This document shows, in pieces, positions 10,488-31,341 of a DNA stretch of 33,503 bases. The stretch comes from a virus, in IMG/VR virus record IMGVR_UViG_3300032265_000802, positions 1 to 33,503 of that record; one strand, 5' to 3'. The position numbers and the translations under genes are program-made. How positions within the stretch are numbered: the first letter of the stretch is position 1; every line of letters starts with the position of its first letter. The notes beneath the pieces were generated by a model. The model searched no databases, had not been told where the DNA came from, and saw only the letters and a program-made list of their open reading frames with translations.

Positions 10488-11858
10488 TTACTTGTTTTCT
10501 AGGTCTCGCGCTACGTCAAGGTAACCTTTACGCAGTGTCAAGTCCTCTGTAGCGGCAGCTTTAGCGCGGTATGTTGCGGCTTTAGCTAGGTCGCTGTTTA
10601 TTGGTGTGTTACTTACCGTATTCATCCGCTTAGGGCCTGATGGTACGGCAAGTGATTTAACCTGTTCCAACTCTGATTCCAGCACCTCAATGCGCTTAGT
10701 ATCAATGGACTTTGTTATTTCATCGCCAACCGTTTCAGTTGGTAGTAACGACTTCACAACTTCCGCAATCATCTCGCGTAGTTCTGAATTCTTTTGTTCT
10801 TTCTTGGCGGCTTTCTTTATAGCCCTTTCCTCATCAGTTTCAGTAACCTCAACAACGGCTACTTCCTCTGGTTCGTCTGATTTCATTTCGGCAGAGTAAC
10901 CGCCCTCAGCACACTTACATTCTTTCATAGCCATACCGCAATCTTTGCAATCGCCACAAGCACAATCTGCTTCTGCCTTGCCACATTCTTTGCACATTTC
11001 TACGGCATCATCTTTAACTGTTTCTGGTTCATCGGCTAATTCAATTTCAAGGCTGCTATCTACATCGGTATCGCCGTAGCCACCCTCAATTTGCATTGCT
11101 TCACCCTCTGATGCTTCGTCTTGGTGGAACTCAAACAGCGCGTGTATAGCTGCAAACAGGCAAGCAATGCTATCTGTTTCGTCTGAACCCATTTCCATTT
11201 CCATTGCTTCAACCTGTAGCAAACGGGCAAGGCCAATACGTGCCATGTCAAAAGATGCTTGGTCAAACTTGGTTACTTCACCAGCAATAGTTTTAGCCGA
11301 TTCGATAAGGGCACTGGCAGTAACCGGTGTCTCGATAGCCATTTCTTCCATTACTTCACTTCCGTTTTCTGCAAGTTCCTCAACCTGCGTTAATTCACCC
11401 TTAACGGTCTTAGCCATAGTTAAAGTACAGGCTGGGTTAGCAGGGCGGTCTACTAAACTAATTTCAACAATCGTGCCATCAACAATGCGCCCGCCAGCGG
11501 CTTTGTTATCTTTTGCTACGCGCGCGCCACGTATGCCAATGCTAAAACCTTTAAGTACGCCGGCTTTAACTTTAGCTACAGAACCGGGGTCTACAACGTG
11601 TGCAGTAATAAAATGCTCTGTGCCCTCTGACTTGTATTCAGTTGCTACACCTGCGGCAATGCTGCTATGTTGTTCGCGGATATTGCCCCATCTAAACCAT
11701 TCTGGCATAGCAGACTTTAGCCATGTAGGGTCGCAAATCTGTGCATCACTATCTAAAGTGTCATCGGTTGCCTTGCCATGAACAAGTAAAGAGCCGTCAG
11801 GCTGTTCGTCCATTTTCAGAATTTCGGCATACACCGCTGTCTGGTTAGGCTTTGCCAC
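10488..11858 (-). CDS. Prohead maturation protease with Cys-rich and scaffold-like C-terminus
   Basis: This is a 456-aa protein. Residues 1-150 match the herpesvirus/HK97-type prohead protease family (XkdF/S78-like): REQHSSIAAG supplies a His near 64, GFSIGIRG a Ser near 106, and VEISLVDRPANPACTLT is the typical conserved strand. The C-terminal half is acidic and helical (residues 330-456), as in protease-scaffold fusions. An unusual eight-Cys cluster lies at 289-316 (pattern CxxC...CxCxxCxxC...CxC). The protein would cleave scaffold and capsid N-termini during head maturation. The start is ATG; the gene lies upstream of the major capsid gene. Confidence 0.85.
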   Translation of the reverse strand: MAKPNQTAVYAEILKMDEQPDGSLLVHGKATDDTLDSDAQICDPTWLKSAMPEWFRWGNIREQHSSIAAGVATEYKSEGTEHFITAHVVDPGSVAKVKAGVLKGFSIGIRGARVAKDNKAAGGRIVDGTIVEISLVDRPANPACTLTMAKTVKGELTQVEELAENGSEVMEEMAIETPVTASALIESAKTIAGEVTKFDQASFDMARIGLARLLQVEAMEMEMGSDETDSIACLFAAIHALFEFHQDEASEGEAMQIEGGYGDTDVDSSLEIELADEPETVKDDAVEMCKECGKAEADCACGDCKDCGMAMKECKCAEGGYSAEMKSDEPEEVAVVEVTETDEERAIKKAAKKEQKNSELREMIAEVVKSLLPTETVGDEITKSIDTKRIEVLESELEQVKSLAVPSGPKRMNTVSNTPINSDLAKAATYRAKAAATEDLTLRKGYLDVARDLENK

Positions 11859-11904: not shown

Positions 11905-12948
11905 TTAGTATTTGTCTATCTCGTAATGGTCTACGTTCTTGTGTAGCCGTTCATCACTGGGAGAAATTTTTAAGGCTTCTATGCCATGGTGTCTAGCCAT
12001 TTGTTTGTAACCCATTTGATAGTACGAAATAGCGGCAAGGTCATGCGCGGTGCTTCCCCATGCGTAGGCTTCACATAAATAATCTAAAGGTTTTTCTGTT
12101 ATTTCTAATGCCTTATAGCAGTATTGCAAACACTCATTCCATTGGCTGTTTTCATAAAAATAAGTCGCTAGTGCTACGTGGTTCTCGCGCCTATTTGATT
12201 CTTGCGCTGCTTTAAGTAACCATTCTTTACGGTGTTGGGGTTCACATTGGGCTAGGTATCGCATACCTGCGGAACGTTCTGGTGTCCATACCGCACTAGG
12301 TAAACTTAAATGGCGCTTAAATTCGGCAACTGCGCGCTCTATTTGATTATCAAACATTAGTTCACGCGCTAAATAAAAAGAATTTCTGTCATCGTGCAAA
12401 TCTTCAGCAACAGCCATTTCTAATAATGGCAAGTATTGTGCGCGACTTTTATTGTTATCTGGGTAATGCTCTATCTGTAGCTGTAGCCATTCTTGCGTTT
12501 CTTGTATCCCGTAACCGCGCAATACTTCGTGTACTGGGTGCTTCCATACATAACCCTTACGCGCGTGTATTTTGTCACCGCCATAGACCAGCCCCGGTGT
12601 GCCGTCTGGATTCCAAGACCATGTGTATTGGTAGCGCGGTCTCGTAGTTGTAGCCTTTTCTAACTTTTCTCGCCAACCAGCAACAAGCACTTCATCCATA
12701 TCTAGGGCTATGCAGTAATCAACATCTAATGGAATGGCTGCGAGAGCAGCGTTTCTAGCAACGTCAAAACGCCAAGGTTTAACACCCAACTTAACCACAT
12801 TAACATTAAAAGATTTAGCAACAGCCAAAGTGTTGTCAGTAGAACCAGTATCAGCAATGAGCAGGTAGTCAGCATCTTTAGCAGAGTCAAACCATTTTTT
12901 AACATACTGTTCCTCATTTAACGCAATAGTGTAAACCGCTATCTTCAC
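11905..12948 (-). CDS. GT-A family 2 glycosyltransferase with TPR-like C-terminus
   Basis: This is a 347-aa protein. The N-terminus has the GT2 nucleotide-sugar fold: IALNEEQYVKKW, ADTGSTDNT at 33-41 and the metal-binding DMD at 83-85. Residues about 180-347 are paired helices like TPR repeats (NSFYLARELMFDNQIERAVA, ALATYFYENSQWNECLQY, CYKALEITEKP). It should transfer a sugar from an activated donor. Phage-encoded glycosyltransferases of actinophages are known to modify virion proteins. Here it sits beside collagen-like and glycine-rich fibre genes, which are plausible acceptors (inference). The start is GTG (MKIAVYTIAL) after AGGG. Confidence 0.85.
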   Translation of the reverse strand: MKIAVYTIALNEEQYVKKWFDSAKDADYLLIADTGSTDNTLAVAKSFNVNVVKLGVKPWRFDVARNAALAAIPLDVDYCIALDMDEVLVAGWREKLEKATTTRPRYQYTWSWNPDGTPGLVYGGDKIHARKGYVWKHPVHEVLRGYGIQETQEWLQLQIEHYPDNNKSRAQYLPLLEMAVAEDLHDDRNSFYLARELMFDNQIERAVAEFKRHLSLPSAVWTPERSAGMRYLAQCEPQHRKEWLLKAAQESNRRENHVALATYFYENSQWNECLQYCYKALEITEKPLDYLCEAYAWGSTAHDLAAISYYQMGYKQMARHHGIEALKISPSDERLHKNVDHYEIDKY

Positions 12949-13164: not shown

Positions 13165-14022
13165 TTAATAGTAAAGATAAATAACACCAGCACCACCTGT
13201 GCCACCTGTGCCCGAGTTATTACCTGCACCGCCGCCACCGCCGCCGTCTCCACCTGCGCCGCCTGTATTGCCTGATGCATTGCTGCCAGCACCGCGATAG
13301 CCACCACCACCACCACCTGCACCAAAAGTTATGCCAGTACCAGAACTTCCTGTACCACCTGCAAATAAATCCCCAGTACCACCATTACCGCCAGTACCAA
13401 CAGCAGTTGTATTAACGCTTCCACCACCGCCACAAATTAAACCGTTTGCCCCATTGCCAGCAGTACCGTTTGTAAGATTTGAGGTGCAACCACCACCACC
13501 GCCTGTGCAAACTCCCGGACCAGAAGTACCAACGCCAGATTGTGCCGTGCCGCCAAATGTTGCGTAACCAATAAAACCACTTGAACCTGTGGGCGCACCT
13601 GTATAAGAAATTCCACCTGCTACACCTGAGTTATTACCAGAACCACCACCGCCACCTGCGCCGCCTATTTGGGCTGCGCTGCCAGCCGAACTACCGCAAC
13701 CGCCACCGCCACCACCTGCAAGTACCATTCCAAAACTTGTATTTCCACCACTACCACCTGCGCCACCACTACCGCCGCCACCTGCCCCTACTACGCAAGT
13801 TGTGGCTATAAAAGTCCAACCCATAGAAATACCACCTGCACCGCCACCACCTGCGTACGTAGACGAAAATCCGCCACCGCCACCGCCACCAATACATACC
13901 GCGTATACGCGCTGTATTCCATCTGGTATTGGTACTGAACCGCTTGCGGTAAGTGTTTGGCGCAACTGTAACCCGTATGGGGTGTCGCTAAAAGATGAAT
14001 TGTTGTAAATAGATGCGCTCAT
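13165..14022 (-). CDS. Glycine-rich fibre/adhesin-like protein 1
   Basis: This is a 285-aa protein. A short N-terminal anchor (PYGLQLRQTLTASGSVPIPD, then VYAVCIGGGGGGG) is followed by about 220 residues dominated by Gly with Ser, Thr, Asn and Ala, with many poly-Gly runs. It ends GGAGVIYLYY, a beta-strand end typical of this family. Similar Gly-rich domains form polyglycine-II sandwiches in phage receptor-binding proteins such as the gp38-type adhesin of phage S16. It is paralogous to the next upstream gene. Adsorption or surface display is inferred. AAGGATAATT precedes the ATG. Confidence 0.75.
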   Translation of the reverse strand: MSASIYNNSSFSDTPYGLQLRQTLTASGSVPIPDGIQRVYAVCIGGGGGGGFSSTYAGGGGAGGISMGWTFIATTCVVGAGGGGSGGAGGSGGNTSFGMVLAGGGGGGCGSSAGSAAQIGGAGGGGGSGNNSGVAGGISYTGAPTGSSGFIGYATFGGTAQSGVGTSGPGVCTGGGGGCTSNLTNGTAGNGANGLICGGGGSVNTTAVGTGGNGGTGDLFAGGTGSSGTGITFGAGGGGGGYRGAGSNASGNTGGAGGDGGGGGGAGNNSGTGGTGGAGVIYLYY

Positions 14023-14030
14023 AATTATCC

Positions 14031-14984
14031 TTAATAAAAAATGAAAAGAATACCTTTGCCGCCCAAAACGCCAGTACTAGTTGTGCCGCCGCCACCACCA
14101 CCGCCGCCAAGACCGCCTACGCCACCAGTTGCACCAGTAGCATTTCCACCGTTGCCAGCAATTCCACCGCCACCACCACCTGCACCATTTGCGTTTGTAC
14201 CGCTAGTGCCTGTGCCACCCGTTGAGACTGTGCCCGTACTAATGTTAAATCCATTGCCACCAGAACCGCCTTGTCGTGTGCCTGTGCAAACGCTTTGAAC
14301 GCCACCACCGCCACCGCCTATAAGACCTGAACCACCGTTACCAGCCGTTGAAGCACCCGTAAAAATTCCTCCGCGAGTTACGCCGCTACCGCCACCGCCA
14401 GAAATACCATTGCTTGCGCTTGCACCTGTAAGAGTTGCACCAGCTGTATTTTGTGTGCTACCAGCACCAGCCGCGCCAGCACCCATACCGCCAGTAGTTT
14501 GCGTAGCAACAGCACCGCCGGGTTGACCGTACATATTGGTATTACCTGCACCACCGTTACCTGCACTAGCACCGCCACCTGCGCCAGCAATTCCCATTGA
14601 GCCACCGGGGTTTCCAATAACAGATGAGCCATAACCACCGCCACCTGCAAGTAGATGTCCATAACGGGTAAAGCCACCGTTTACAGCTGCGCCAGTACCA
14701 GCCGCGCCTATTGTGCAAGTTGAATATGGCAACGTCCAGCCCCACGCAAGTCCACCTGCGCCACCACCAGCGTAAGCACCGCCACCACCGCCACCTGCAA
14801 GAATTGCATACACCCAAGTAATGCCGGCAGGGATAGTTACTGCACCAGTACTTGTAATTGTTTGCCGTAATTGTAAGCCGTGTGGCAAAATAAAAGACGT
14901 TTGAGAGTTAGGTGTAAAACTACTGCCTTGCACACCTGTTGATACAGGGTTACCTGCTTGCCCTCTGCGGTTTGGATTAGCCAT
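14031..14984 (-). CDS. Glycine-rich fibre/adhesin-like protein 2 (paralogue)
   Basis: This 317-aa protein has the same plan as its neighbour: PHGLQLRQTITSTGAVTIPA, VYAILAGGGGGGA, a long Gly-rich body and a hydrophobic end GGKGILFIFY. The shared anchor and matching order of Gly runs point to a tandem duplication, with the Gly-rich bodies diverged. The N-terminal 30 residues differ from protein 1 and may attach to a different partner. The stop is 9 nt before the next gene, and the start is coupled to the preceding gene by TAATG. Confidence 0.75.
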   Translation of the reverse strand: MANPNRRGQAGNPVSTGVQGSSFTPNSQTSFILPHGLQLRQTITSTGAVTIPAGITWVYAILAGGGGGGAYAGGGAGGLAWGWTLPYSTCTIGAAGTGAAVNGGFTRYGHLLAGGGGYGSSVIGNPGGSMGIAGAGGGASAGNGGAGNTNMYGQPGGAVATQTTGGMGAGAAGAGSTQNTAGATLTGASASNGISGGGGSGVTRGGIFTGASTAGNGGSGLIGGGGGGVQSVCTGTRQGGSGGNGFNISTGTVSTGGTGTSGTNANGAGGGGGGIAGNGGNATGATGGVGGLGGGGGGGGTTSTGVLGGKGILFIFY

Positions 14985-15355: not shown

Positions 15356-16393
15356 CTATCCGAACACTTGCATTGAAATTACAGCTTGGTCTGTATCGTA
15401 AATTGCATTAGCACCTGCTGGTCCAGTAGGTCCAGTAGGTCCAGTAGGTCCAGTAGCGCCGTTAGTACCGTTAGTACCGTTAGTGCCATTAGTTCCAGTT
15501 GCGCCCGTTGGACCAGTTGGACCAGTAACAGTTGAAGCTGCGCCCTGTGGTCCGGTAGGACCGGTAGGGCCTGTGACCGTAGATGCAGGACCGGTAGCGC
15601 CCGTAGGACCTGTAACCGTACTTGCCGCGCCTTGTGGACCAGTTGGGCCAGTTGGCCCAGTTACGGTTGATGCAGGACCAGTTGGCCCGGTTGGGCCTGT
15701 AACGGTTGAAGCAGGACCGGTAGGACCTGTAACGGTGGAAGCTGCGCCTGTAGGACCTGTTGGACCAGTAGGACCAGCCACAGTAGAAACTGGTCCAGTT
15801 GGGCCTGTCGGTCCAGTGACAGTGGAAGCCGCGCCCGTTGCCCCTGTAGGGCCTGTTGGTCCTGTGACCGTACTAGCTGCACCAGTAGCACCCGTTGGTC
15901 CTGTTGGTCCAGCCACAGTTGATGCTGCGCCTGTAGGGCCCGTAGGTCCCGTAGCACCAGTAGCACCCGTTGGACCAGTTGGTCCAATTGTGCCGTTAGT
16001 TCCAGCACTACCCGTAGGTCCTGTTGGCCCAGTTACACCCTGTATACCTTGCGGTCCAGTAGGGCCTGTAACAGTGGAAGCCGCCCCGGTAGCACCAGTA
16101 GCACCCGTTGGACCAGTTACAGTACTTGGTGCGCCCGTACTACCAGTTGGACCTGTAACGCCTTGCGGTCCTGTTGGACCAACACTGCCAGTAGGTCCAG
16201 TTACATTTGATGCTGCCCCCGTTGCACCAGTAGGTCCTGTTGGTCCAAGCGGTCCAGTTGGGCCTTGGATACCTTGGATACCTTGGTTGCTTACAGTAAC
16301 CGCAATAACGTTTTCAGTAGTAGTTAATGCAGTAACGCCATCAATGGTGGTTACAGCTACAACAGTTTCAGTAGTAGTTATTTCACCAGCCAT
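15356..16393 (-). CDS. Collagen-like fibre protein
   Basis: This is a 345-aa protein. Residues 1-35 form a Thr/Val-rich head ([20 protein letters not shown]), then about 290 residues of Gly-X-Y triplets, mostly GPT and GAT, end in a short cap ([18 protein letters not shown]). The triplet run is broken many times by a 7-residue unit of the type GAAS(T/N)VT, which would put flexible hinges into a triple helix. Thr in the Y position is characteristic of bacterial and phage collagens and is the O-glycosylated residue in Bacillus BclA. The protein should trimerise into a virion fibre. The antisense frame is also long and open, as expected of such repeats. Confidence 0.85.
15414..16293 (-). repeat. 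Tandem Gly-Pro-Thr coding repeats
   Basis: The DNA here is a degenerate tandem array of 9-nt units coding GPT/GAT, with a longer unit coding the 7-residue interruption recurring roughly every 30-80 nt. Copies differ mainly at third positions. Such arrays expand and contract by recombination, so fibre length may vary between relatives. Confidence 0.8.
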
Positions 16394-17165: not shown

Positions 17166-17314
17166 TCTTCACCAATGTTATTTTCTTTAGCAAAATCATT
17201 TAAGCGGCGGTCAAGTTCTTGTTTTGCTTCAAGAATTTCATCATTTGCCCCAATAATTAAAGCAAAAATACTTTCATCTGACCAGTTAATAGATTCAACA
17301 AATTCTTTATTCAT
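17162..17314 (-). CDS. Small acidic helical protein, candidate immunity partner
   Basis: This 50-aa frame (MNKEFVESINWSDESIFALI at the start, ending ENNIGEE) begins on the base that ends the metalloprotease-domain gene (TAATG). It is acidic and predicted mostly helical. Like the preceding domain it is AT-rich compared with the surrounding genes. A small gene coupled directly behind a toxin-like C-terminal domain is the usual place for an immunity protein, but no family is recognised, and an assembly role is equally possible. Confidence 0.7.
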   Translation of the reverse strand: MNKEFVESINWSDESIFALIIGANDEILEAKQELDRRLNDFAKENNIGEE

Positions 17315-18921
17315 TATTTCCATCCAAATTCTTTTGCTAATCCAATGGCTAACTTGTTTTCTGTTAATCCCTTACTTAAATGCCATTCGGCAAACATTTC
17401 TGCATACAATTCAAAAGTATTTTCACGCGCGTATTGACTGCGTAAAGCACCTTTACTTTGATTTATTACATCTCGCATACGTTGATTACGTTCTTTTATG
17501 GCAAAAGTATCAGACTCTTTTGTGTCTATTGTGTGACCCCATTCATGGGTTAATGTATATTTCCATTTTTCTATTTCTTTTGATACTGGCATAAAGCGTT
17601 CAGTTTCATTAAATTTAACATCCGCAAAAGCTGACGGTGAAAAGAAAATAGTATCGCCACCTGAATGTGTCCATGCTTTTACACCAATACCGCTTGAATT
17701 TCTCAATGGTGCTACAACAACATTTATAGATTCTTTAGGTTGAATTTTTTGCAATTCATCTACATATTTCATTAACTTCATTTGGTCTGCAATGGAAAAT
17801 TCTTTTATTTCATTTAATCCATAGCGTTCAAATGTAACTTTCATACCGCCATTTGCATAAACGGTAGGTGCGCCTTTTTCGGCTATTACTTTATTCATTA
17901 CGGCTTCAATGTCAGACCGCATCTTTGTGAACCCATAAGTATTTTTTAAATAGTCATAAAAAATTTCTTTTACTTGTGTTTCATCAGCTTTAACCCATTC
18001 ACCGGGTTTCCATTCACGGGCGGTTGCTTGTTCAAATGTTTCTGTTTCAACTGTTGGCGATTCATCCACAATGCCATCGTGTATAACCGTATCTTCACCC
18101 TCTGGTGATACTTCAGTAACATCGCCGCTAGTGTCTGTGTTGTCTGTCTGGTCTGTGGTGTCAGTGGTATCTACGCCGCTTTCAGGAATGACAGGTAACG
18201 TGGTGCAAATACAGTTAGGGTGCGCTGGTGGGTATTCGTCACCGCTAGAAAACGTGTCACCTAATGTGATTATTTCGCCGTCATTAGGTTCACAAATTTC
18301 ACACGGGTCTGCGCCCTGCCACTCTATTTGTTCAATACCAGCATCTTTGTAATCGCTTATAGCCGCTTGGTTTAATGCGTTTGAGGTTTCAGTACGCGCT
18401 ATAACCATTGCCCGTAATGGGTCGTTAAGCACATCGTTAATCTCACTAGCTATGTCTCTAGGGCTTAACCCTTGGTCTAATCCACTGGCTAAAGCTGTGC
18501 CAATACGGTCTAGGGTAGTGGCATCCAGTTGGTCTATTAAGGCTTTATTGCCGTTTAGTAAATCAGCTAACCTGCCCTGTGGGTCTACAAGCGCGGCTGC
18601 GGCTGCGTTACCGGGTTGCCATGTAGACCAATCCAAGCCAACGGTAGCGCCTAAATCCTGTTGCGCCATGGCTTGCCCCATTACCCAACCAGTAGCGTGT
18701 GTTTGGGTTACAGCGCTTGCAAGTACCTTGTTGTTAAAGGCAATGTTTACTTTTAACCATTCACGTGCGCTGTTTGTACTTGTTGTACTTTTTATGTGGT
18801 TATGCGCCGCCCATTTAGCTGCAACCGCATCTGCATCAACACTAACCCGTAACCCTGCTTGTATTAACAGGGTATTTTGGTTAAGTAACCTGTGCTTTGC
18901 CGCTTCCCTGCGGCTTACGCT
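17314..18921 (-). CDS. MuF-like head protein with C-terminal HExxH metalloprotease domain, read by -1 frameshift from portal
   Basis: The open frame from 18921 to 17314 is 535 aa, but no ATG, GTG or TTG exists in its first 80 codons; the first ATG is at 18681. It is therefore probably entered by a -1 slip at the end of the portal gene (fusion of 613+535 aa). The first part has the MuF pattern: VIARTETSNALNQAAISDY, then DPCEICEPNDG and PPAHPNCICT. A Thr/Asp-rich linker follows. The last 230 residues hold THEWGH (His379, Glu380, His383 counted from the ATG) and NTFELYAEMFAEW, giving a possible third zinc ligand Glu, as in HExGH zincins of the anthrax lethal factor type. This C-terminal part is AT-rich. 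Initiation at 18681 alone would lose 80 well-formed residues. Confidence 0.85.
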   Translation of the reverse strand, partial: SVSRREAAKHRLLNQNTLLIQAGLRVSVDADAVAAKWAAHNHIKSTTSTNSAREWLKVNIAFNNKVLASAVTQTHATGWVMGQAMAQQDLGATVGLDWSTWQPGNAAAAALVDPQGRLADLLNGNKALIDQLDATTLDRIGTALASGLDQGLSPRDIASEINDVLNDPLRAMVIARTETSNALNQAAISDYKDAGIEQIEWQGADPCEICEPNDGEIITLGDTFSSGDEYPPAHPNCICTTLPVIPESGVDTTDTTDQTDNTDTSGDVTEVSPEGEDTVIHDGIVDESPTVETETFEQATAREWKPGEWVKADETQVKEIFYDYLKNTYGFTKMRSDIEAVMNKVIAEKGAPTVYANGGMKVTFERYGLNEIKEFSIADQMKLMKYVDELQKIQPKESINVVVAPLRNSSGIGVKAWTHSGGDTIFFSPSAFADVKFNETERFMPVSKEIEKWKYTLTHEWGHTIDTKESDTFAIKERNQRMRDVINQSKGALRSQYARENTFELYAEMFAEWHLSKGLTENKLAIGLAKEFGWK

Positions 18922-24365: not shown

Positions 24366-24699
24366 AGCCGGCTTCCCTAAGTAGTTCCACCATTACCCAT
24401 AGCGGTACTACGGTAGGCCAATCTGCTATCTTGGCTTCTCCCCAACCATTCGGGCGCAGCACGGCAATACCAAGTACGCCATCTTTAGCGCGTTCTGACA
24501 TTTGTTTTAAGGCTGCCTGTGGGTTAAAGTCTGCCTTAGCTTTAACTTCCCAATCCAACGCCGGCGTACCAGTTATGTCTGAACCTTGCCTACCAGCCCC
24601 GGCGCTCAACGCGAAAGGCCAACCATTAGCGGCTAGGTATTGCGCCACAATGTCTTGGCTTTTATAGCCGCGGTGTTTACGGTGTTGGCTGTCACTCAT
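24349..24699 (-). CDS. Holliday junction resolvase-like PD-(D/E)XK nuclease
   Basis: This 116-aa protein has GYKSQDIVAQYLAANGWPFA, then RQGSDITG (Asp41) and DWEVKAK (Glu51, Lys53), the order of a PD-(D/E)XK nuclease core, followed by a Gln-containing helix (NPQAALKQ). It resembles the short resolvase/RecB-like nucleases widespread in actinophages. It would resolve branched DNA from recombination or replication before packaging. It overlaps both neighbours by a few bases. Confidence 0.8.
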   Translation of the reverse strand: MSDSQHRKHRGYKSQDIVAQYLAANGWPFALSAGAGRQGSDITGTPALDWEVKAKADFNPQAALKQMSERAKDGVLGIAVLRPNGWGEAKIADWPTVVPLWVMVELLREAGYGSET

Positions 24700-24925
24700 C
24701 GTAATCCTCTAACTGGTAAACGGGTTCTACGCTGTTAAGTAAGTAATACAACAAACCCTGTCTACGCCATTGTGGTAAATCAGTTATGCGGTGTTCCTCT
24801 ACCCATACATCGCCCTGCCCATCAACCCATTCGGTTACCAAAATCCAAGCGCTGCATACGCTGTTCTTTTCTAATGCGCTACCAACATCGCTAATAAGTA
24901 ATCCAACTTGTTCTGCTAAATCCAT
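24692..24925 (-). CDS. Small hypothetical protein, 77 aa
   Basis: The start chosen is ATG 24925, where TAATG joins it to the stop of the proteasome-like gene, giving 77 aa (MDLAEQVGLLISDVGSALEK). An upstream alternative at 24967 would overlap that gene by 43 nt. The sequence alternates helix and strand (CSAWILVTEWVDGQGDVWVE, then RRQGLLYYLLNSVEPVYQLE). No family is recognised. Its co-translation with the hydrolase and resolvase genes suggests shared timing, not function. Confidence 0.7.
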   Translation of the reverse strand: MDLAEQVGLLISDVGSALEKNSVCSAWILVTEWVDGQGDVWVEEHRITDLPQWRRQGLLYYLLNSVEPVYQLEDYDE

Positions 24926-25509
24926 TAGTGTGCCTTTACTACGCGCCCGGTGGGATAAGAAATCCAACCAGTTATAGCGCCGCGTGTGTACGGGTCATGT
25001 TTTTTAGCAGCTGCCATCGCTTCCATTGCAAAATGTTTGTGGGCATTATCCCAATCAGCATTAGCGCCGTGGGTTGAAAGTACGCCTAGCGCCAACCCTT
25101 CACCGCTACCTATCGCCCAGTATGGTGTGGCTTTTATTAAGCCTAGGGATGCGCCAATAAAGAAAGCCTTACCGTGGGTTACTAATAATAAGTCACTATC
25201 GCCAAGGGTATTGCCATCGTTTTTAGGTAGCTGTTCGCTGGTTGCTTTGGCTATTGCCGGTATTACTTTGGTAACAATAAACCCATACCAATCCTCAATG
25301 GGTTTTTTAACAAGGCTTTCTGGTGGCTTAGGGTATTTAACCCCGTACTGCAATACATCGCACACACGGCTGTCACCTGCCACACCGATAAGCCACGTGC
25401 CTTGCTGGATTATTTTACCCATGTCTGGGTGTATGTAATCGCCCGTAATACCTTGGTCAGCAAACAAGGTTGCATACCGTGCGCTAGTGGTGGTTACTAT
25501 AGTGGTCAC
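24925..25509 (-). CDS. 20S proteasome/HslV-like Ntn-hydrolase
   Basis: This 194-aa protein starts at GTG (MTTIVTTTSARYATLFADQG). Removal of Met would expose Thr, the N-terminal nucleophile of proteasome beta subunits. Asp18 (ADQGITGD) falls at mature position 17, as in active subunits, and Lys32 (MGKII) is close to the catalytic Lys33. Later segments fit the fold: GTWLIGVAGDSRV, LLLVTHGKAFFIGAS, AIGSGEGLALGVLST, AAKKHDPYTRGAITGW. Such a peptidase needs oligomerisation and usually an ATPase partner, which is not seen here. It may mature or degrade proteins during infection; the substrate is unknown. Confidence 0.75.
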   Translation of the reverse strand: MTTIVTTTSARYATLFADQGITGDYIHPDMGKIIQQGTWLIGVAGDSRVCDVLQYGVKYPKPPESLVKKPIEDWYGFIVTKVIPAIAKATSEQLPKNDGNTLGDSDLLLVTHGKAFFIGASLGLIKATPYWAIGSGEGLALGVLSTHGANADWDNAHKHFAMEAMAAAKKHDPYTRGAITGWISYPTGRVVKAH

Positions 25510-26777: not shown

Positions 26778-27107
26778 CTACTTTATCCCACGCCTACACA
26801 GCGCACAGTAGTTAGCGCCTTTGGGTTCACCGTGTGGGCAATCCACAAACTTTAAGGCTGGGGCTGTACTAACGCTGGCTATCTTTGTAGCTGCCATTTT
26901 CTCCGCCTTATGTACCATCAACCCCACCGGGCTGCCAACGGTAGCCCAATCGGTGTTATTAACTACTGCCTTGGCTAAGGCTTTAGGTTGCCACCCGTTG
27001 CGCTTGGCTTTAACTAGCGCAGTGTTTAGCCGTGGTACTTCTTTATCTGGGCGTAACTGTTCCGGTAATGCCCCTAGGTAAAGGCTTACGTATTCGCTGG
27101 TTTCCAT
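26778..27107 (-). CDS. Hypothetical protein with C-terminal Cys/His motif, 109 aa
   Basis: This 109-aa protein starts METSEYVSLYLGALPEQLRP. The first 75 residues are helical with basic patches (ALVKAKRNGWQPKALAKAVV). The end, DCPHGEPKGANYCALCRRGI, has a CxH...CxxC arrangement that could bind zinc; CPHGxP...YCALCR is a pattern I recall from actinophage proteins of unknown role. It overlaps the WhiB gene by 65 nt, with ATG 27107 the only good start. DNA binding or a helicase-loader-like role is possible but unproven. Confidence 0.7.
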   Translation of the reverse strand: METSEYVSLYLGALPEQLRPDKEVPRLNTALVKAKRNGWQPKALAKAVVNNTDWATVGSPVGLMVHKAEKMAATKIASVSTAPALKFVDCPHGEPKGANYCALCRRGIK

Positions 27108-27399
27108 TCATACCTTCAATTAAATCTGCAACGTGGTCTAGCCGCCATACTTTATTACTTTTAAGCGCCATGCGTTCTAAGGCAGTTAAGCCACCCCACA
27201 TACCAAAGTCTTCATAACGTAGCGCCCACACTAAACACTTAACCCGTTCTGGGCAAGCACGGCATAACCCACGCGCAAACTCAACATCTATTATGTTGGG
27301 GTTCACGGTGTCTTCGGCAAACCACAACTCCGGGTCTTCGTTTTTACATAGCGCTTTATCAAAGTCTGGTATTGCAAGCTTGTTTACTGGGCCTGTCAT
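27043..27399 (-). CDS. WhiB-like transcription factor A
   Basis: This 118-aa protein has the four Cys of WhiB proteins (Cys18; Cys46 and Cys49 in GLCRACP; Cys55 in VKCLVWAL) that hold a 4Fe-4S cluster, followed by GMWGG at 66-70, the turn contacting the primary sigma factor, and a basic tail (NQRIRKPLPRGITGTV) for DNA. WhiB proteins are restricted to actinobacteria and their phages. In the middle operon it may redirect host sigma-A promoters or block host WhiB, as shown for the mycobacteriophage TM4 WhiB; the role here is inferred. Confidence 0.9.
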   Translation of the reverse strand: MTGPVNKLAIPDFDKALCKNEDPELWFAEDTVNPNIIDVEFARGLCRACPERVKCLVWALRYEDFGMWGGLTALERMALKSNKVWRLDHVADLIEGMNGNQRIRKPLPRGITGTVTPR

Positions 27400-30503: not shown

Positions 30504-30532
30504 TTGCATCAGCAAACAAATGGGCGTAAGTT
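30504..30532 (+). promoter_or_regulatory. Rightward promoter of regulator operon
   Basis: TTGCAT (30504-30509), a 17-nt spacer and TAAGTT (30527-30532) mirror the leftward promoter exactly in position. The spacer holds AAACAAATGGGCGTA, differing by one base from the leftward copy. It would give a leader of roughly 40 nt before the XRE gene, whose ribosome site is GGAAGG. The hexamers are weak, so control by an activator is possible. Confidence 0.6.
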
Positions 30533-30576
30533 GTGCCTACACGGTAGAGCGCCGTTGTGTTTATGGAAGGCAAATT

Positions 30577-30834
30577 ATGAATAACAACAGTATGCAATTT
30601 TTACGTAGCCGTATGGATACCCTTGGCTATGAAAGTTTAGAACCGGTTGCAGTAGCTATGGGCATTAACCGTGGCAACTTGTACAGGTACTTTGCAGGTC
30701 AAACAGTACCTAGTGCTGAAATGATTCCAGTAATGTGTACGGTGCTAGAGGTTACGCCTATGCAACTTATGGAAGCACTAAATCTAGTTACCAATTACCA
30801 GCGCAAACAATTGAGCAGTATGGGCGCGCAATGA
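30577..30834 (+). CDS. XRE/Cro-type helix-turn-helix regulator
   Basis: This 85-aa protein starts MNNNSMQFLRSRMDTLGYES at ATG 30577 with GGAAGG six bases upstream; a TTG at 30520 is rejected because it lies inside the promoter. The HTH is LEPVAVAMGINRGNLYRYFA followed by GQTVPSAEMIPVMCTVLEVT, the standard Cro/C1 four-helix fold. As the first gene facing the palindromic control region it may repress both divergent promoters. With no integrase in view, lysogeny cannot be judged. Confidence 0.85.
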   Translation: MNNNSMQFLRSRMDTLGYESLEPVAVAMGINRGNLYRYFAGQTVPSAEMIPVMCTVLEVTPMQLMEALNLVTNYQRKQLSSMGAQ

Positions 30835-31028
30835 CATTAACCGAACAAGCCGAAGCCGTGCGTAAGGAAGTGTTAGCAGCAACGCGCGGTACTGAATTGC
30901 AATACCTTGTACTAAAAGCGTTAAGCCTGACAATGGCAGAAGCGTTTGATAAAGCATTTGATGAAGGCTGGGAATCGGCAATGGGCGAACTGGCTGTGCT
31001 AAAGGCAGGTAGTTATGGAGTTACCTGA
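30831..31028 (+). CDS. Small helical protein, 65 aa
   Basis: This 65-aa protein starts MTLTEQAEAVRKEVLAATRG. ATG 30831 overlaps the stop of the HTH gene (ATGA), and the end overlaps the WhiB start by 14 nt. It is predicted helical (LVLKALSLTMAEAFDKAFDE) and acidic. No family is recognised. It may act with the two regulators it is translated between. Confidence 0.7.
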   Translation: MTLTEQAEAVRKEVLAATRGTELQYLVLKALSLTMAEAFDKAFDEGWESAMGELAVLKAGSYGVT

Positions 31029-31341
31029 TTTTACAGAAGCAGCTTGTGTCAATGTTGCTACCGATTTATTCTTTCCAGAAACAGCAATAGAAAATGCTTA
31101 CAATAAAGAATGGCTACGTGGGTATTGCTACGGCTGTAAGTTATTTGAACCGTGCCTTGAGTACAGCCTAGTCGTAATGGTAGATGGTATCTGGGCTGGC
31201 AACGATGCACTAGACCGCCGGGCTATACGCCGGGCGCGTGGCACAAAGGCACAACGCTTAGAGCAATCTTTAGGCGATGTGTTTCAATCAACAACGCAAG
31301 GCGCAAAAGCGCAAAGACTGAAAAGAGCTAAACAAAAATGA
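31015..31341 (+). CDS. WhiB-like transcription factor B
   Basis: This 108-aa protein carries Cys11, Cys38 and Cys41 (GYCYGCKLFEP) and Cys47 (CLEYSL), the four cluster ligands of WhiB, then GIWAG at 58-62 in place of the usual G(V/I)WGG, and a basic C-terminus (RRAIRRARGTKAQRLEQ, ending KRAKQK). It differs strongly from the other WhiB here. Co-transcribed with the HTH protein, it is likely an early regulator acting on the host sigma factor. The changed GxWGG motif may alter that contact. Confidence 0.88.
   Translation: MELPDFTEAACVNVATDLFFPETAIENAYNKEWLRGYCYGCKLFEPCLEYSLVVMVDGIWAGNDALDRRAIRRARGTKAQRLEQSLGDVFQSTTQGAKAQRLKRAKQK

Follow-up and report, generated by a model that had tools for sequence, protein, structure and literature searches.

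A divergent proteasome/HslV-like Ntn-hydrolase encoded by a probable actinophage

The window, as we call the whole 33,503-nucleotide stretch of viral DNA that was analyzed, contains at positions 24925-25509 (- strand) an open reading frame for a 194-residue proteasome/HslV-like Ntn-hydrolase, identified by its match to PHROG 1040 and by its AlphaFold fold. The frame has no internal stops over 194 codons counted from a GTG. This start and the exposed Thr that follows it are credible because the homologue at locus L001 opens with Met-Thr-Thr from an ATG at the same place. The GTGA at the start overlaps the stop codon of the frame upstream, and the stop codon shares the sequence TAATG with the ATG of the next gene.

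The first-pass annotation had pointed to a Thr after the initiator Met, an Asp at mature position 17 and a Lys near position 33, and all of these are present. In an alignment of 36 family members, the equivalents of proteasome Thr1, Asp17, Lys33 and the oxyanion-hole Gly47 are found in 36/36 sequences, which indicates a complete active site. In the window protein they correspond to Thr2 (mature Thr1, the predicted nucleophile; codon 25504..25506, -), Asp18 (mature Asp17; 25456..25458, -), Lys32 (mature Lys31; 25414..25416, -) and Gly45 (mature Gly44; 25375..25377, -); Thr3 is also present in 36/36. The segments GSGEGLALG and KHDPYTRGA, likewise singled out in the first reading, supply the equivalents of Ser129, Asp166 and Ser169: Ser135 within IGSG (25105..25107, -), where all 35 rows with a residue have Ser or Thr; Asp172 within KHDPYTRG (24994..24996, -), where 17/35 rows have Asp and most others Asn or Ser; and Thr175 (24985..24987, -), which is Thr in 34/35 rows. 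The Asp166 and Ser129 equivalents differ in sister clades of the window protein, and altered activity is therefore possible in some members. Purifying selection on the gene is strong within the clade from Planktophila phages, with a median dN/dS (omega) of 0.12 over 65 pairs.

Profile searches placed the protein in a phage family, with PHROG 1040 ("peptidase HslV family") matching residues 2-180 at E 3.8e-19. The Pfam Proteasome model (PF00227) scored 13.7 bits, below its gathering cut-off of 22.4, and the most obvious single HMM test would therefore miss this protein. Among NCBIfam models at E<=10, the HslV model was not listed and the only entry was TIGR03634 (archaeal beta), at 18.1 bits against a cut-off of 224; no match to a PrcB model was obtained. 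A PDB search with the single sequence reached a best E of only 0.11, and a search with a profile of 36 phage sequences matched BPH, the betaproteobacterial proteasome homologue, at E 1.3e-10 and HslV at ~1e-8. A viral library contained a 55% identical protein from an uncultured phage. The AlphaFold monomer computed from the 36-sequence alignment (pLDDT 91.9, pTM 0.90) is a confident proteasome-beta fold, an alpha-beta-beta-alpha sandwich in which the first strand is predicted to begin at residue 3 with Thr1 at its start. Among solved structures, 20S beta subunits and BPH have the most similar folds, at Z ~19 and rmsd ~3 over 162-173 residues; both were on top in Foldseek and VIA-align, and no HslV was among the matches listed. 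Lack of a significant profile match and a wrong fold were the two outcomes that would have counted against the original assignment, and neither was observed. The assignment to the 20S/HslV family of Ntn-hydrolases thus stands as far as a proteasome/HslV-like protein with a complete active site is concerned, but placing it within HslV or 20S beta in the strict sense is not supported.

Relatives of the window protein are encoded by Arthrobacter phages Pitbull and Hum25, Actinomycetia phage DSL-LC01, and Microbacterium phages LeeroyJenkins, WaterT, Lifes, Cassita, BarnCat and Pumpernickel, and further relatives occur in phages of Vibrio, Pseudoalteromonas, Psychrobacter and Aeromonas. Two more, OX376640 and OX376641, are the Planktophila phages LanE43AprE7 (E7) and F5, which were isolated on 'Ca. 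Planktophila landstejnensis' LanE-43 (PMC10202952). One scan of IMG/VR with the E7 protein returned 144 relatives; the window protein itself has close relatives in the L001 homologue (51% identical) and a fragment, L002 (66%). A scan of bacterial genomes with the Pitbull and Pumpernickel sequences gave no matches. The view that a stand-alone beta-type subunit is unusual in a phage was overstated: PHROG 1040 already carries a name, several actinophage copies are annotated "protease", and the phage proteasome homologues PPH and AAH were described by Fuchs in 2021 (PMC8665760). The window protein is thus a divergent member of an already described phage family. A literature search of open-access papers turned up no experimental work on any phage member.

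AAH and PPH are group I homologues in Caudoviricetes that have no AAA+ partner (PMC8665760), and the window protein was compared with these and with the cellular enzymes. It shares the Thr1/Asp17/Lys33 frame of PHROG 1040, but the named actinophage members of that family are only ~26-30% identical to it. BPH (PDB 5ovs/5ovu) is the best profile match among solved structures and, with a structural Z of 18.9, among the best structural ones, but it is a chromosomal bacterial protein of ~17% identity, probably separate from the phage lineage. HslV (ClpQ) resembles the window protein in its compact group I-like fold, the Thr right after Met and a length of 170-195 residues, yet its partner HslU was found neither in the window nor in the sampled hosts of relatives. 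HslV proper was rejected, given no match to a curated HslV model, no HslU in the window and topology tests that excluded grouping with E. coli HslV (p 0.023). The 20S beta subunit (PrcB) is similar in active site and fold (Z ~18-19), but the window protein has its Thr directly after Met, with no propeptide, and no alpha subunit accompanies it; PrcB/20S beta proper was rejected on the sub-threshold Pfam score, the missing PrcB match and the missing propeptide, and grouping with PrcB in the tree was not formally rejected (p 0.095). PPH was rejected because the window protein has 194 residues and a predicted helix H2 (modeled first helix pair at 47-56 and 71-93), whereas PPH has ~140 residues and no helix H2 (PMC8665760).

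In trees that covered phage members, E. coli HslV, PrcB and cellular actinobacterial proteins, the window protein and L001 form one group (100/100), which branches off among phage clades by a long stem. This pair lies nearest to the E7-like group with a support of only 78/86, so that its placement is not firm. Large actinobacterial genomes (L119-L130) contain a second proteasome homologue of ~189 residues that starts with MTCIVG and is probably AAH; in the tree these proteins cluster with those of Psychrobacter phage D'Alembert and Vibrio phage 166E36-1. Grouping of the window protein with these cellular proteins, presumed AAH, was disfavored but not rejected (p 0.07). The window protein is best labeled a probable separate lineage within the group I-like proteasome homologues of phages.

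The gene sits among recombination and DNA genes. As originally noted, neither an ATPase nor an alpha subunit accompanies it: no AAA+ domain of the Clp/HslU type (AAA_2) and no second proteasome-family frame were found in the window, which may be an incomplete record. For homologues of this kind, Fuchs et al. (2021) found no informative genomic context (PMC8665760). A head protease is encoded at 10488-11858 (phrog_80, E 8e-15). A Mu gpF-like head protein (17314-18681, -; Phage_Mu_F, E 3.6e-13) has a zinc-metalloprotease-like HEWGH motif in its C-terminal region. At 15356-16393 (-) and 13165-14984 (-) the structural region also encodes a protein with collagen-like GPTGPTG repeats and two very glycine-rich proteins, and a family 2 glycosyltransferase (11905-12948, -; Pfam E 7e-9) lies inside the structural gene block. 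The gene that follows the HslV-like gene (24692..24925, -) begins at the ATG of the TAATG junction and encodes a 77-residue protein with the motif GWvLvsEWxdxxG. This product belongs to a common actinophage family (L131-L210) for which Pfam gave no match and PHROG none of significance; one IMG/VR scan returned 159 matches on actinophage-like contigs, often near a WhiB-like gene.

The host of the window phage is probably an actinobacterium, as the first-pass annotation had supposed, because the window carries a WhiB gene (27043-27399, -; Pfam Whib, E 5.5e-15). A second WhiB-like gene, judged by eye, lies on the opposite strand (31015-31341, +), together with an HTH-like frame at 30520-30834 (+). 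The suggested survey of hosts for prcBA and hslV was run on the hosts of relatives. PF00227 proteins were present in 0/8 sampled Nanopelagicales genomes, including LanE-43, the host of E7 and F5, and in only 4/151 genomes of LanE-43's order; those four (among L113-L118) have two copies each, a prcB/prcA-like pair as expected for prcBA. A 16S probe for acI bacteria matched 17 loci including the LanE-43 chromosome, and the eight sampled genomes were of this kind. In six Nanopelagicales host genomes no HslU and no Mpa/ARC scored above cut-off, and the sub-threshold AAA+ matches were ClpX-, FtsH- and ClpC-sized frames that, from their length and score, are probably ClpX, FtsH and ClpC themselves.

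We consider that the protein is probably an independently acting, self-assembling, phage-borne threonine peptidase of the proteasome type that is used during infection. This reading is based on the family match, the predicted fold and the invariance of the catalytic residues, and also on two features of the relatives in Planktophila phages: purifying selection and a host that has no proteasome, HslV, HslU, Mpa or ARC. Removal of the initiator Met by the host methionine aminopeptidase would expose Thr1, with no propeptide to be processed. By analogy with HslV and BPH, the subunits would probably assemble into a ring or double ring of their own, forming a closed chamber that could cut unfolded or small proteins. 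Such a chamber would work without a dedicated AAA+ partner or might be fed by the housekeeping ClpX or ClpC. Its role during infection may be to eliminate particular proteins of the host or the phage, not to serve as part of a host's own proteasome.

Two alternatives concern the target of the protein. A virion or prohead protease that cleaves phage structural proteins during assembly is an unlikely identity for the window protein, since this phage has a head protease of its own and the gene lies away from the structural genes, as it also does in Pitbull, LeeroyJenkins, Pumpernickel and DSL-LC01. The case for it comes from E7, where the order is terminase, portal, HslV-like gene, small gene, a 147-residue gene, a 1764-residue gene, further genes and then the major head protein, so that the HslV-like gene, directly after the portal, is where a head-maturation protease is usually encoded; a scan of 20 E7 frames recognized no other head protease. 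Across E7-like phages the HslV-like gene in this slot is present, absent or swapped for another HslV-type lineage (L185:1857-2432; L211:7500-8036; L170). The different lineage at L185 suggests selection for function in that position, but L170 has the same portal region and no HslV-like gene. A head or virion role may thus apply in the Planktophila-phage branch. The other candidate target is the host proteasome itself: a poison or mimic subunit that enters the 20S particle to disable or retarget it would fit the beta-type fold and size, and 226/297 Actinomycetes genomes match phrog_1040, mostly through weak PrcB-like matches. The retained active site and the clear divergence from PrcB in the tree, where the joint grouping nevertheless escapes formal rejection, speak against such a role, and the E7/F5 homologue cannot act by joining a host proteasome because LanE-43 has no PF00227 protein. 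The mimic and poison roles raised in the first reading are accordingly disfavored, at least in hosts of the LanE-43 type. The extension of this host argument to the window phage is by analogy, its relatives there being only ~30% identical, and we regard a poison subunit as highly improbable.

The remaining alternatives concern the chemistry and the partners of the enzyme. Connectase, a monomeric protein ligase with a proteasome fold, is a precedent for non-peptidases among proteasome homologues (PMC8665760), and secondary active-site residues have been lost in sister clades. A ligase, amidase or acylase that acts on a specific phage or host substrate is nonetheless unlikely here, as the two-helix insertion that connectase has between strands S3 and S4 is absent from the model, which predicts a compact fold with both helix pairs. 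A two-gene module, in which the downstream 77-residue protein would serve as adaptor, cap or inhibitor, is suggested by the overlapping junction in the window, by the overlapping start in E7-like phages and by two unrelated neighborhoods in which a homologous small gene comes after the HslV-like one; the window product resembles that of the gene right after the E7 HslV-like gene (blastp E 4e-8), and such a small gene follows the HslV-like gene in ~45 contigs. However, when the small protein itself was used as an independent query, 79/80 of its relatives had no HslV-like gene within ~2.5 kb, and the small gene was rejected as a dedicated partner on this ground. In L170 it stands directly after the portal with no HslV-like gene, L037-L069 and L001 have an HslV-like gene with no small gene, and the structure prediction for the 77-residue protein is poor (pLDDT 57). 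The adjacency in two neighborhoods is only suggestive, and a functional module of the two genes is very doubtful.

The independently acting threonine peptidase that we favor belongs to a kind of protein already known from phages, as the described homologues (PMC8665760) and the actinophage genes annotated "protease" attest, and its novelty is limited accordingly. What is new is the placement of related proteasome-type enzymes in several actinophage lineages, whereas Fuchs et al. (2021) could find no Actinobacteria-specific phage that encodes AAH (PMC8665760), and their presence in cultured phages of a very abundant freshwater bacterial group for which a sequenced host has neither proteasome nor HslV. 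As a long shot, freshwater actinophages may have recruited a proteasome-type peptidase as a dedicated infection enzyme that, in Planktophila phages, replaces the head-maturation protease beside the portal; if true, this would add a new kind to the assembly proteases of phages. The interest of the family comes mainly from relatives in a phage-host pair that is amenable to study and in which no host enzyme competes: E7 on LanE-43 offers an infection system in which a phage proteasome homologue has no host background activity.
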